Shown here piece by piece: positions 28,600 to 34,136 of a stretch of DNA of 43,642 bases. Source of the DNA: an uncultured Eubacteriales bacterium (lineage in GTDB: Bacteria; Bacillota; Clostridia; Oscillospirales; Oscillospiraceae); the NCBI GenBank assembly GCA_900320595.1, contig ONSW01000015.1, forward strand, positions 1 through 43,642, read 5' to 3'. The translations under genes were made by a program, and so were the position numbers. The notes under the pieces were generated by a model, which worked only from the letters and a program-made list of their open reading frames with translations, had not been told where the DNA came from and did not search any database. Each line of letters begins with the position of its first letter. The first letter of the stretch is position 1.

Positions 28600-29430
28600 A
28601 TGAGCAGAGCAGACGAGATCTTTATCGCCAACTGCAGGGATATACTGGACAACGGCGTCTGGGACACCGACCGCGAGGTTCGCCCCCGCTGGGAGGACGG
28701 CGCCCCCGCCCACACCGTCAAGAAATTCGGCATCGTCAACCGTTATGATCTCTCGGAGGAGTTCCCGATCCTGACGCTGCGCCGCACCTATTGGAAGAGC
28801 GCGATCGACGAGCTTTTGTGGATCTGGCAGCAGAAGAGCAACAACGTCCACGATCTTCGCACCCGCGTGTGGGACGCCTGGGCGGACGAAAACGGCTCGA
28901 TCGGCAAGGCCTACGGCTATCAGCTGGGCGTGAAGCACCACTATCCCGAGGGCGACATGGACCAGGTCGACAAGGTCATCTGGGATTTGAAGCACAACCC
29001 CGCCTCGCGCCGGATCATGACGAACATCTACACCTTCGCGGACCTCAGCGAAATGGCGCTTTACCCCTGCGCGTATTCGATGACCTTCAACGTCAGCGGA
29101 AATAAGCTCAACGCGATCTTGAACCAGCGCTCCCAGGACATGCTGGCCGCGAACAACTGGAACGTCGTGCAGTACGCCGTGCTGACGATGATGATGGCGC
29201 AGGTCGCGGGCTTTGAGCCCGGCGAGTTCATCCACGTGATCGCCGACGCGCACATCTATGACCGCCACGTTCCCGCCATCGAGGAGATCATCGCGCACGA
29301 GCCGAAACCCGCGCCGAAGTTCATCATCGATCCCGAAGTCAGGGACTTTTACGCCTTCACGCGCGACAGCTTCCGCATGGAGGGCTATGAGTATTCCGAA
29401 TTTACCGGCAAGATCCCGGTCGCGGTCTAA
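28600..29430 (+). CDS. thyA: Thymidylate synthase (ThyA)
   Basis: A 276-residue folate-dependent enzyme making dTMP from dUMP. It carries the Arg of the phosphate site (NRYDLSEEFPILTLRRTYWK), the ELLWIWQQKSNNVHDL helix and GKAYGYQLG. The nucleophile lies in ALYPCAYSMTFNV, a clostridial variant of the usual PPCH motif with YPCA. LNQRSQDMLAANNWNVVQYA supplies the RSxD and N residues; HVIADAHIYDRH binds the deoxyribose. AGGAAAGG upstream. It is followed 16 bp later by the dihydrofolate reductase fusion, the usual partner because ThyA produces dihydrofolate. Confidence 0.97.
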   Translation: MSRADEIFIANCRDILDNGVWDTDREVRPRWEDGAPAHTVKKFGIVNRYDLSEEFPILTLRRTYWKSAIDELLWIWQQKSNNVHDLRTRVWDAWADENGSIGKAYGYQLGVKHHYPEGDMDQVDKVIWDLKHNPASRRIMTNIYTFADLSEMALYPCAYSMTFNVSGNKLNAILNQRSQDMLAANNWNVVQYAVLTMMMAQVAGFEPGEFIHVIADAHIYDRHVPAIEEIIAHEPKPAPKFIIDPEVRDFYAFTRDSFRMEGYEYSEFTGKIPVAV

Positions 29431-29446
29431 GAGGGGAGAGGGAAGC

Positions 29447-31168
29447 ATGGAAGCGATCGTTGCGGTCTATTCCGACTGGGGCATCGGCGACGGCGGCACC
29501 CAGCCCGTCGTGCTGCACGCCGACCGCGCGCATTTCCGCACACACACCGCCGGCGCGGCGGTGATCGTGGGGCGCAAAACGATGGAGGATTTCCCGGGCG
29601 GGCGGCCGCTGAAGGGACGGCACAACATCGTCGTCACGCGGCAGAACCTCACGATCGAGGGAGCCGAGGTCGCCCGCTCGACCGACGAGGCGCTCGAGCT
29701 GGCCGGGAAATACGACAAATGCTACGTCATCGGCGGAGCGAGCGTGTTCCGCCAGTTTTTCCCGTATCTCGACCGCGTGGAGATCACGAAGATCGATCTC
29801 AAACCCCGCTCCGACAGCTTCTTCCCGGACCTCGACGCCGACCCCGACTGGGTCTGCGCCGCGCAGGGCGACTGGCAGGAGGAGGACGGGATCCGCTTCT
29901 GCTTCTGCACGTATGAAAGAAAGGACAAGAACAAAGTCATGGAGGAAAAGCTGCGTGAATACGCGCGCCTGCTCGTCGAGGTGGGTGTGAATCTGCAGAA
30001 GGGCCAGACGCTGGTGATCCGCTCGCAGGTGGACTGCGCACCGTTTGCGCGTCTGTGCGAGGAGGCGGCCTATGCCGCCGGCGCGCGCGAGGTCGTGATG
30101 GACTGGGGCGACGAGCAGAGCACGCGGCTGCACTATCTGTATGCCGCGGACGAGCTGCTCGACGAGGTGCCGGAATGGAAAAAGATGTTCAGCAACGGCT
30201 ACGCCGAGGCCGGCGCGCTGTTCCTCTCCATCAGCAGCGGCGATCCGGAGATCTTCAAGGACGTCGATCCCGCGCGCCTGCTGCGCAGCAGCCGCGCCTA
30301 CGGAAAGGCGATGGAGCCCTTCCGCTCCCGCCTGATGGCCAACCGCAACGTCTGGTCGCTCGGCGCGATCCCGGTCGAGAGCTGGGCGAAAAAGGTATTC
30401 CCCGGACTGGACGGGAAAGAGGCGCTTGAAAAGCTGTGGGACGCGGTGTTCAAATCCGTGCGCATCACCGGGGCGGGCGACGCCGTGGAGAAATGGCGCG
30501 CGCACGAGGCGATGCTGCGCGCACGCGTCGAAAAGCTCAACGCCTGGCGTTTTAAGTCGCTGCACTACCGCAACGCGCTCGGCACCGATCTGGTCGTGCG
30601 TCTGCCGAAGGATCATCTCTGGGCGGGCGGCAGCAGCGCCACGCCCGAGGGGCAGCGCTTCATCGCCAACATGCCCACCGAGGAGATCTTTACCGCGCCG
30701 CTGCGCGACGGCGTCGACGGCGTGGTCTGCGCCGCGATGCCGCTGGTGCTCAACGGCAACCTCGTCGAGGGGATCCGCTTTGTCGTCCGCGACGGCAAGA
30801 TCGTCGAGGCGCACGCCGAGAGCGGCGAGGCCGTACTGAAGGCCGAGCTCTCGGTGGATGAGGGCGCCACGCACTTCGGCGAGGCCGCGCTCGTGCCCTA
30901 TGACAGCCCGATCCGCAATCAGGAGATCCTCTTCTACGACACGCTCTTTGACGAGAACGCCGCCTGCCATCTGGCCTTCGGCGACGCGTATCCCGAGTGT
31001 GTGCGCGGCGGCGAGGACATGACGGCCGAGGAGCTGGCCGCGGCGGGGCTGAACCACTCGGACACGCACGTCGATTTCATGGTCGGCACGCGGGATCTCT
31101 CCATCATCGGCACGACGGCGGACGGGGAAGAGATCGCGGTGTTTGAAAACGGCAACTTCACGTTCTGA
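29447..31168 (+). CDS. folA: In-frame fusion: dihydrofolate reductase (N-term) + M29 aminopeptidase (C-term)
   Basis: One uninterrupted 573-codon frame. Residues 1-160 are dihydrofolate reductase: MEAIVAVYSDWGIGDGG, ADRAHFRTHTAG with the catalytic Asp, VIVGRKTMEDFPGGRPL and CYVIGGASVFRQFFPYL, ending FCFCTYERK. From Met165, MEEKLREYARLLVEVGVNLQ and KGQTLVIRSQVD are the exact beginning of an M29 (AmpS/PepS) aminopeptidase, about 409 residues. Metal ligands are present: NMPTEEIFTAP (Glu), THFGEAALVP (Glu), the ENAACHLAFG His and LNHSDTHVDFMVG (two His, one Asp). No stop separates the two. ATG 29939 has a weak AGAAAGGA 13 bases upstream, so internal initiation could also give free aminopeptidase. 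DHFR directly after thyA is expected; the peptidase partner is not. Confidence 0.92.
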   Translation: MEAIVAVYSDWGIGDGGTQPVVLHADRAHFRTHTAGAAVIVGRKTMEDFPGGRPLKGRHNIVVTRQNLTIEGAEVARSTDEALELAGKYDKCYVIGGASVFRQFFPYLDRVEITKIDLKPRSDSFFPDLDADPDWVCAAQGDWQEEDGIRFCFCTYERKDKNKVMEEKLREYARLLVEVGVNLQKGQTLVIRSQVDCAPFARLCEEAAYAAGAREVVMDWGDEQSTRLHYLYAADELLDEVPEWKKMFSNGYAEAGALFLSISSGDPEIFKDVDPARLLRSSRAYGKAMEPFRSRLMANRNVWSLGAIPVESWAKKVFPGLDGKEALEKLWDAVFKSVRITGAGDAVEKWRAHEAMLRARVEKLNAWRFKSLHYRNALGTDLVVRLPKDHLWAGGSSATPEGQRFIANMPTEEIFTAPLRDGVDGVVCAAMPLVLNGNLVEGIRFVVRDGKIVEAHAESGEAVLKAELSVDEGATHFGEAALVPYDSPIRNQEILFYDTLFDENAACHLAFGDAYPECVRGGEDMTAEELAAAGLNHSDTHVDFMVGTRDLSIIGTTADGEEIAVFENGNFTF

Positions 31169-31179
31169 CGCACAAAAAC

Positions 31180-31217
31180 AAGAAGCAGTGAGACCTTTCG
31201 GTTTCACTGCTTCTTTT
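31180..31217. terminator. Bidirectional terminator between the DHFR-M29 gene and spoIID
   Basis: A 16-bp stem starting AAGAAGCAGTGA (31180) and closing at TCACTGCTTCTT (31215), one G-T pair, TTTC loop. Confidence 0.85.
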
Positions 31218-31235: not shown

Positions 31236-32276
31236 TTACTTCACCAAAATCGTGCCGGGATAGTAATGTGTCAGGATCTGAACATAATCCGCGCCTTGAC
31301 GCGCCATCTTATCCGCACCGTATTGACTCATCCCCACGCCGTGGCCGAAGCCGGTCACGGTAAAGGTGAAGGCGGAGGAATCGTAAGTAAGCTCAAAGGC
31401 CGTGGAGCGAAGGGAAAAGAGGGAACGGAGCTCGATTCCGCCCACCTCCACCCCGCCGAGAACGACCGAGGCCACGCGCCCGCTGCCGTCGCGCCGCAGC
31501 TCGCCTATCCATTGATCCTCCGGCCCCGAGAAATCTGCCTCGGGGTGCGCGGAGAGCACCGTGTCACGGAAGTCAATAGGGCTGCAGCGCAGCGTGCTGA
31601 TATAATTCGGGACGTCGTCGGCCGTTTCCGGACTCGGAACGCTGACGAGATACGGCACCGCGCTCCACACGTCGGCGCTGTTCTCCGTAACCGAGGCGGA
31701 GGACGAGTGAAAAGCGGCAAAGACCGGCTGCCCTCCGGCAGACAGATACTCCCCGTATGTAAGATCGACGGCTGAACGTATTTTTTCATGATCCGCATCG
31801 TAATCCTCTCCCCATTTTGTCCGCAGCTGCTCGTCGCTCTGCCAGGCCTGGCAGCAGCGATAGTCGGTGCACACCTGCGCCTCGCCGTGCTTGGAAAACG
31901 AGGCGCAGTACAGCGCATAGGTCCTGGCCGCGACGGCCTGGGCCTTGAGCGCCTCGGCGTGGAAGCCGGGCGGCATCTCGGCGGATACGACGCCGGTGAG
32001 ATAGTCCTGCATGTCCATCGACGTGACCGTACCGTCCGGCAGCAGCACGCTAAGCCGCTCCGGCGCCGGGAGAGCCGCGGCCGGGGGAGCGGGCGTCACG
32101 GCCGTCTCGTCCGCGCGGGGAAGCACAGAGGGCGGCGCCTCGTCCACCGCGGCCGCCGGCGTCGGATTTACCGCCCCGGCGCCCTCCTGCGCGTCCTGTT
32201 CGCCGAGATTGGCCAGAAAAGGCAGCCCTACCGCGACCATGAGCGCGATGTAGGCATAGAGGATCGTTCGTTTCAT
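31236..32276 (-). CDS. spoIID: SpoIID-family peptidoglycan lytic transglycosylase
   Basis: A 346-residue protein with an N-terminal membrane anchor (ILYAYIALMVAVGLPFLANL), a Pro/Ala-rich linker, then the SpoIID domain. LPDGTVTSMDMQDYLTGVVS, followed by AEMPPGFHAEALKAQAVAAR, is the family hallmark; Glu100 in SAEMP is the catalytic acid. The zinc/Cys segment CTDYRCCQAW, the FHSSSASVTENSADVWSAVP motif and GFGHGVGMSQYGADKMARQG follow. In Bacillus SpoIID degrades septal peptidoglycan during engulfment with SpoIIP/SpoIIM. Length and C-terminal HYYPGTILVK end agree with true SpoIID. GGGAG precedes the ATG. A sigma-E promoter was not identified. Confidence 0.94.
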   Translation of the reverse strand: MKRTILYAYIALMVAVGLPFLANLGEQDAQEGAGAVNPTPAAAVDEAPPSVLPRADETAVTPAPPAAALPAPERLSVLLPDGTVTSMDMQDYLTGVVSAEMPPGFHAEALKAQAVAARTYALYCASFSKHGEAQVCTDYRCCQAWQSDEQLRTKWGEDYDADHEKIRSAVDLTYGEYLSAGGQPVFAAFHSSSASVTENSADVWSAVPYLVSVPSPETADDVPNYISTLRCSPIDFRDTVLSAHPEADFSGPEDQWIGELRRDGSGRVASVVLGGVEVGGIELRSLFSLRSTAFELTYDSSAFTFTVTGFGHGVGMSQYGADKMARQGADYVQILTHYYPGTILVK

Positions 32277-33266: not shown

Positions 33267-34136
33267 TCAGGGGTCATCGCCTGTGGTTGGGCTTTGGGAC
33301 GGCGACTGGGTCGCAGTGTCAGACGGTGTAGACTCAGTGCCAGATGGCGTCGGAGACGGAGTTGTCGTGGTGTCAGACGGCGTCGGAGACGGTGTTGCCG
33401 TGGTGTCAGACGGCGTCGGCGAAGGCGTGGGCGAGGGCTGCGTGTCGCCGCCGATCACGACGGTGACCGTATTGTCGTCGTCCGGCTTGGGCGTTGCGGT
33501 GGGCTGCGGCGTATAGGGCGCGGCGCCGTTCACGGTGATCAGCGCGCCCTTCGAGGCGAGCATCCCGCCGTCCTTGTCGGTGAAGAGGCAGACGGCATAC
33601 CAGCCGTTGAGCTCTTTGCAGACCTTGTCAATGTAAAAGATCTCCTTGTCGCCGTCGCGGCAGACGAGACCGGGGAATTCTTTCTGCAGATCCTTCGCGT
33701 TCCAGAGCACCTCGCGGCTCTTGTCCGGCGAGACAAAACGCCATTCAAGCGAGACCGCCCCGCTTGCGCGGGCGATCATCAGGATGTTCGCGCCGCTGTA
33801 CACCGTTTCGGCGGCGGGGTGCTTGGAGATCTTGACGAGAGAGGACGTTGCGATGTCGATGAACTGCGCCGGATCCGGCGTGGGCTCGGGTGTGGGCTCC
33901 GGGGTCGGTTCGGGCGTGGGCTCGGGCGTAGGCTCCGGGGTCGGTTCGGGCGTGGGCTCGGGCGTAGGCTCCGGGGTTGGCTTCGGCGTGGGCTTCGGCG
34001 TGGACGCGGGCGTGGGCTCCGGCGTCGCGAGGGCGAGATCCGGCGCCCGGAACGAACAGCCGCCGAGACTGAGCAGCAGCGCCGCGATCAGCACGGCGCA
34101 GATGAGCGTGGAAAAGCGACGGAAAGTATTTTTCAT
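33267..34136 (-). CDS. Lipoprotein with Pro-rich spacers flanking a small beta domain
   Basis: 289 residues. The signal peptide ends in LSLGGC, a lipobox. Residues 38-89 are a TPEP-repeat spacer that would cross the peptidoglycan. Residues 90-200 form a compact domain ([46 protein letters not shown]) resembling Ig-like domains seen in clostridial surface proteins; no enzyme motif visible. The last 80 residues are a second spacer of SPTPSDTT-type units ending without an anchor motif (no LPxTG, no membrane segment). Function unknown. The C-terminal spacer may be glycosylated; this is inference. Confidence 0.8.
33870..34025 (-). repeat. PTPEP-coding tandem repeats
   Basis: About 50 residues of (T/K/E)P repeats with a 12-bp core period (ggctc(c/g)gg...gg/cgtgggc on the plus strand), inside the lipoprotein gene. 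Confidence 0.85.

Follow-up and report, generated by a model that had tools for sequence, protein, structure and literature searches.

The window, by which we mean the whole 43,642-nucleotide stretch of DNA that was analyzed (contig ONSW01000015.1 of an uncultured Oscillospiraceae bacterium), contains a single reading frame in which a dihydrofolate reductase (DHFR) runs on directly into an M29 aminopeptidase. The frame opens with ATG at 29447, separated by 16 nt from the end of thyA, and closes with a TGA stop at 31166-31168; 67 nt further on lies the end of a convergent SpoIID-like gene. One copy of the fusion is present in the window's genome. The features of the locus, in window coordinates, are as follows.

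28600..29430, + strand: thyA, thymidylate synthase, the upstream gene (Pfam Thymidylat_synt, E 3.8e-88; stop at 29428-29430)
29447..31168, + strand: fused DHFR-M29 ORF of 573 aa, a single stop-free ORF of 573 codons
29447..29920, + strand: DHFR domain, residues 1-158 (Pfam DHFR_1 at residues 2-158; phmmer matches to solved DHFRs)
29919..29925, + strand: Shine-Dalgarno-like GAAAGGA, 13 nt 5' of the internal ATG (SD duplex energy -9.3)
29921..29938, + strand: linker KDKNKV, residues 159-164 (the junction codons)
29939..29941, + strand: internal ATG, Met165, likely second start (aligned with free M29 starts; ATG in six of seven species)
29939..31168, + strand: M29 aminopeptidase domain (Pfam Peptidase_M29 at residues 166-571; PepS 4icq, E 6e-104)
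31236..32276, - strand: convergent SpoIID-like gene (Pfam SpoIID, E 4e-24)

Antisense to the whole fusion lies a 601-aa open frame (window 29402-31207, - strand), of the kind that GC-rich codon use can produce opposite a coding strand; it was read as such a mirror frame and set aside. Further along, an ORF at window 33267-34136 (- strand) has, by eye, a signal-like start and long PTPEPTPE repeats.

The claim of an earlier note on this DNA, that a complete DHFR and a complete M29 peptidase share one 573-codon frame after thyA, is confirmed by full-profile Pfam matches, both above cut-off: DHFR_1 (PF00186) covers residues 2-158 with profile positions 3-159 of 159 (E 1.3e-37, 129.4 bits), and Peptidase_M29 (PF02073) covers residues 166-571 with positions 2-406 of 406 (E 1.1e-158, 528.8 bits). 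The M29 metal ligands, all of which the same note had reported as present, were found likewise: the EEHYHD signature, given for AmpS in passages of PMC7023490 as E253, E319, H348, Y355, H381 and D383, corresponds to E413, E479, H508, Y515, H541 and D543 of the fusion by hand count on the 1zjc alignment (1zjc chain index minus 3). All six columns are invariant in 33 of 33 aligned sequences. In the DHFR part, for which E. coli numbering is used (Asp27, Thr113, Trp22), the acidic equivalent of Asp27 and the equivalent of Thr113 were each present in 26 of the 26 genus DHFRs examined. Trp22, usually conserved in FolA-type DHFRs, is replaced in all of them, fused or not (Val in 25, Ile in one), so that its absence has no bearing on the fusion.

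An AlphaFold2 monomer model built on the 33-row alignment was confident for the M29 part (block means 82-98) and weak for the DHFR part (block means 40-71), which only 3 rows cover; it predicts one helix, residues 161-180, leading from the linker into the first M29 helix. In Foldseek, the M29 part of the model matched PepS, AmpS and AmpT (five chains, with a TM to target between 0.83 and 0.95; 0.95 for 4icq), and the remainder matched DHFR structures at a TM to target of only about 0.6-0.7, which is what the weak model of that part would lead one to expect.

Distribution of the fusion and ancestry of its peptidase

The architecture was found again in related genomes, where the earlier note had proposed to look for it: of the 102 genomes of the genus, 7 carry a stop-free, full-length DHFR-M29 fusion that is 73-100% identical, and the remaining 95 gave no match of fusion class at E 1e-115. 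The fused loci include those of a goat rumen Oscillospiraceae bacterium (L080, genome G081) and an uncultured Clostridia bacterium (L146, genome G005). The seven linkers vary in sequence, and in length by one whole codon, with the frame kept throughout; the 3' end of thyA lies directly upstream of the fusion in all seven. Pairwise dS among the seven fused species is about 0.26-1.0, and dN/dS over the 21 pairs ranges from 0.14 to 0.29 in the DHFR part and from 0.14 to 0.43 in the M29 part; as these ratios are well below 1 in both parts, both are under purifying selection. A stop just before the peptidase in relatives, which the earlier note had named as part of what would refute the fusion, did not turn up, as none of the genus loci inspected has the order dhfr, stop, M29. 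Outside the genus, no DHFR-M29 fusion was detected in samples of 300 family genomes (among the matches listed), 394 order genomes (at E 1e-130) and 398 phylum genomes (at E 1e-120), the last two thresholds being ones that miss weaker fusions. No paper on a DHFR-M29 or TrmD-M29 architecture was found in the portion of the open-access PMC literature covered, and passages on folate genes in PMC1971073 name no peptidase partner.

Nineteen DHFR-only loci were chosen from 18 genus genomes for comparison. In all 19, thyA lies upstream of dhfr and M29 is absent from the examined stretch; a SpoIID-like gene follows dhfr within about 300 nt in 11 loci and at about 2.9 kb in one, and in seven none was seen. 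Among all loci fetched, with flanks mostly of 1.5-4 kb, neither a free M29 gene nor an unfused dhfr-M29 pair was found beside dhfr. The nearest free M29 genes are about 60% identical and belong to other genera. The fused M29s cluster together in the M29 tree, all seven rows in one group (SH-aLRT 100); the free relative closest to this group, L035, is again from another genus (SH-aLRT 93 in the quick tree; 92/75 in the careful tree). Because the nearest free relatives sit in other genera, the fused M29 either arrived by transfer or was retained in these genomes while the other members of the genus lost it. A second M29 match was found in none of the seven fused genomes, and of 94 others in the genus at least 54 have a more distant M29 (a hand count; Fisher 0.0037), a contrast that is suggestive only because the fused genomes constitute one clade and their assemblies are 69-93% complete.

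On thyA and dhfr combined, G026 and G086, two genomes without the fusion, fall into one group with the fused rows (99/95 for protein, 99/100 for DNA) and lie nested among them. In both, dhfr stops three residues past YERK, beside what by eye is a hairpin and a T run. G026 and G086 thus probably lost M29 after the fusion; monophyly of the seven fused rows on thyA and dhfr is disfavored but not formally rejected (p-AU 0.0575), so that later loss is not proven. The G026 bin holds two thyA-dhfr loci (L060 and L079) of different relatedness, by duplication or because the bin is mixed.

The start codon at the joint

Free M29 proteins start at the residue aligned with Met165, and the aligned codon is ATG in six of the seven fused genes and GCG in the seventh, from genome G017. 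The Shine-Dalgarno (SD) duplex energy before this position is -8.3 to -10.2 in the six Met-bearing junctions and -1.7 in G017. Ranked against 120 other ATGs inside the seven ORFs, the six values come within the best 2.5-7.5%, the window's -9.3 being among the best 5%, and they lie near the median of -9.6 for 72 free M29 starts. In G000 and G099 the spacing between SD and ATG comes to about 13 nt, which counts against internal initiation.

Random synonymous recoding of the linker peptides attained the observed SD strength in 0.1-4.5% of trials at every one of the six junctions and in 81% of trials for G017, and the summed strength of the six, which are related by descent and not independent, was reached in 0 of 2000 recoding draws. 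When the recoding was applied as a control to 68 other in-frame Met codons, two fell below 0.05, both being the same codon in two close relatives. Strong SD energies also occur at some 3' ends of dhfr that carry no peptidase: energies of -9.5 and -9.7, owed mainly to bases beyond the stop, were obtained at 2 of 17 other non-fused dhfr ends, and the non-fused nested relatives G026 and G086 have -7.8 and -8.9 without any M29.

An in-frame start with a ribosome-binding site at the domain joint, the mark of a tandem start, is therefore seen in six of the seven species, the window's included, and is absent in G017. Judged from these signals, internal initiation is likely in the six species, and it is likely that the long DHFR-M29 and a free M29 are both made there, because the ATG is kept in six of seven genes behind an SD stronger than synonymous recoding predicts. 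In G017, internal initiation at the aligned codon was judged absent, and without the ATG and the SD it would seem not to be needed there. The suggestion of the earlier note, that translation may also begin internally at Met165, thus gains sequence support at the aligned M29 start in six species and does not extend to G017, which has no start codon at this position.

Fusions of the same M29 subfamily to other enzymes

Following long open frames among the family matches listed, we fetched 12 family loci with an open frame of at least 520 codons, four of which (L161-L164) have a Pfam-confirmed partner: three are in-frame TrmD-M29 fusions from three genera (L161:155-2134, L162:494-2455 and L164:3317-5302) and one, from a single genus, is an in-frame HAD phosphatase-M29 fusion (L163:1596-3641). 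Each of their joints has an in-frame ATG, with SD energies of -9.3 to -12.2 ahead of it. When 300 family genomes were searched with the TrmD fusion at E 1e-160, six matches came up, namely these three TrmD fusions at full length and three that covered M29 only. Among 149 distinct M29 proteins of at least 46% identity, 11 are fused to an identified partner (7 DHFR, 3 TrmD, 1 HAD), which is not an even sample because long frames were sought on purpose.

At ten further loci trmD lies directly before M29 as a separate gene; nine of these show an out-of-frame overlap between the two genes, and the tenth, L137, has the trmD stop immediately ahead of M29. Grouping the three TrmD fusions as a single clade was rejected (p-AU 0.012); the quick M29 tree forces two TrmD origins, and the starred branches of the careful tree do not by themselves force more than one. 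For the HAD fusion, an unfused relative is available within the genus of the fused genome G227: G287 (L198) has TAA at the codon aligned with an Asp of the fusion, and its HAD gene is followed by M29 with AAGGAG and ATG in register with those of G227.

Among the other eight of the 12 loci, the frames upstream of M29 in L160, L165, L166, L168, L169 and L172 have no Pfam match and look non-coding, and in L170 a stop adjoins M29. The eighth, L167:1244-3241, carries a more distant M29 (37% identity) preceded by about 240 in-frame residues, which have no Pfam match and may represent another fusion. In a scan of long frames only, the upstream frames of seven further loci, L115, L088, L140, L144, L018, L014 and L098, gave no Pfam match.

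Interpretation and comparison with known systems

The explanation that we consider best, with a probability of roughly 0.62, is that an M29 gene was captured behind dhfr and is held there as a stop-free fusion, in most of the species with a likely internal start and probably with a gain in expression. An M29 gene with its own leader and ribosome-binding site would have landed directly behind dhfr in the ancestor of the clade, within the Oscillospiraceae. With no stop between the two, initiation at the DHFR start would give the 573-aa DHFR-M29, and in six of the seven species ribosomes would also start at the internal ATG to give free M29; fused and free forms could then mix in the M29 dimer. 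The gain is probably one of expression, the peptidase riding on a housekeeping message, and not one of folate chemistry, because TrmD and a HAD phosphatase have each acquired a member of the same M29 subfamily in separate fusions. With partners as different as DHFR, TrmD and HAD phosphatase, a partner-specific function, and with it a folate-specific role for the fusion, is unlikely.

More generally, such fusions may arise by adjacency or overlap behind a housekeeping gene followed by loss of the stop, the peptidase start being usually kept, and in our reading this sequence of steps could explain all of the fusion cases. Short gene overlaps couple the translation of neighbors, according to passages of PMC10666635. 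For DHFR, an unfused neighbor stage was not seen among the loci fetched. A broader proposal, which we put forward only tentatively, is that this M29 subfamily is a recurrent C-terminal passenger: it would have been joined to three unrelated housekeeping enzymes on four or more separate occasions, with the start usually selected, tethered and free forms co-assembling, and peptidase dose coupled to the housekeeping message.

Unlikely, but the strongest of the competing accounts, is neutral loss of the stop, in which both enzymes tolerate the joint, translation yields the fusion protein alone, and the SD and ATG at the joint are remnants in decay, left over from the leader of the incoming gene. 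The persistence of the fusion in G017 after both signals were lost fits this account, as do the unrelated partner enzymes in other genera and the probable loss of M29 from the two nested species; decaying relics are nevertheless hard to reconcile with an SD strength that stayed despite linker turnover and with synonymous choices that favor the SD in six of six junctions. Quite improbable, in our estimation, is a functional partnership in which DHFR and the aminopeptidase contribute to a common process, such as folate salvage or one-carbon supply, and the tethering itself is selected. Such a partnership would suit the retention of the fusion across seven species at dS up to about 1.0, and also the lack of a second M29 in the fused genomes, although that count of 0 of 7 represents one clade and not seven events; against it, the subfamily is also fused to TrmD and HAD, and no free M29 adjoins dhfr in the loci fetched. 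Removal of a stop codon by an assembly or sequencing artefact can be dismissed, even though the fusion records L080 and L146 are metagenome-assembled, as seven genomes whose linkers differ share the in-frame joint, L080 (goat rumen) and L146 belong, by their records, to different projects, and a stop-free fusion in 7 of 102 genomes makes chance, misassembly and sequencing error very unlikely.

Where the earlier note left a choice between a recently lost stop and a stable bifunctional protein, the fusion has proved to be common to seven species that differ by a dS of about 0.26-1.0; bifunctionality in a shared pathway has not found support, because the M29 subfamily is fused to TrmD and HAD and the HAD relative has an aligned stop. 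Gene fusion is usually taken to mean that two proteins work together, and one peptidase subfamily fused to three unrelated enzymes is a caution against inferring function from a single fusion. Unfused and overlapping neighbors are still present, providing a natural series from adjacent through overlapping to fused genes, in which it becomes testable whether expression by itself can be reason enough to hold a fusion, the free enzyme being preserved by an internal start. If the recurrent-passenger proposal is true, there would be a repeated route from neighboring or overlapping genes to true fusions.

The M29 part of the fusion resembles PepS (4icq), AmpS (1zjc) and AmpT (2ayi) in its full-length domain, at a TM to target of 0.94-0.95, and in all six EEHYHD residues, but the structures of those enzymes are of free proteins of about 410 aa, and in the fusion the first M29 helix comes after a DHFR. 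The DHFR part is likewise a complete FolA-type domain beside thyA with the Asp27 and Thr113 equivalents, differing in a C-terminus that runs into M29 and in the Val or Ile at the Trp22 position. Bifunctional DHFR-thymidylate synthases are known in protozoa and plants. They share with DHFR-M29 the placing of DHFR in a two-enzyme fusion, but their partner is the next enzyme of the same pathway, whereas the window has thyA as a gene of its own and an unrelated enzyme as the partner of DHFR. One such bifunctional enzyme is that of Trypanosoma (abstract of PMC4866688). The closest parallels are the TrmD-M29 and HAD-M29 fusions, which have the same M29 subfamily and a short in-frame linker with an SD and ATG inside it, and which differ in their N-terminal enzymes, their genera and their separate origins. 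Tandem in-frame starts are also familiar from cheA, infB and clpB, in which one ORF yields a long product and a short C-terminal one; their short form lacks part of one protein, whereas the short form of DHFR-M29 would be a whole separate enzyme.
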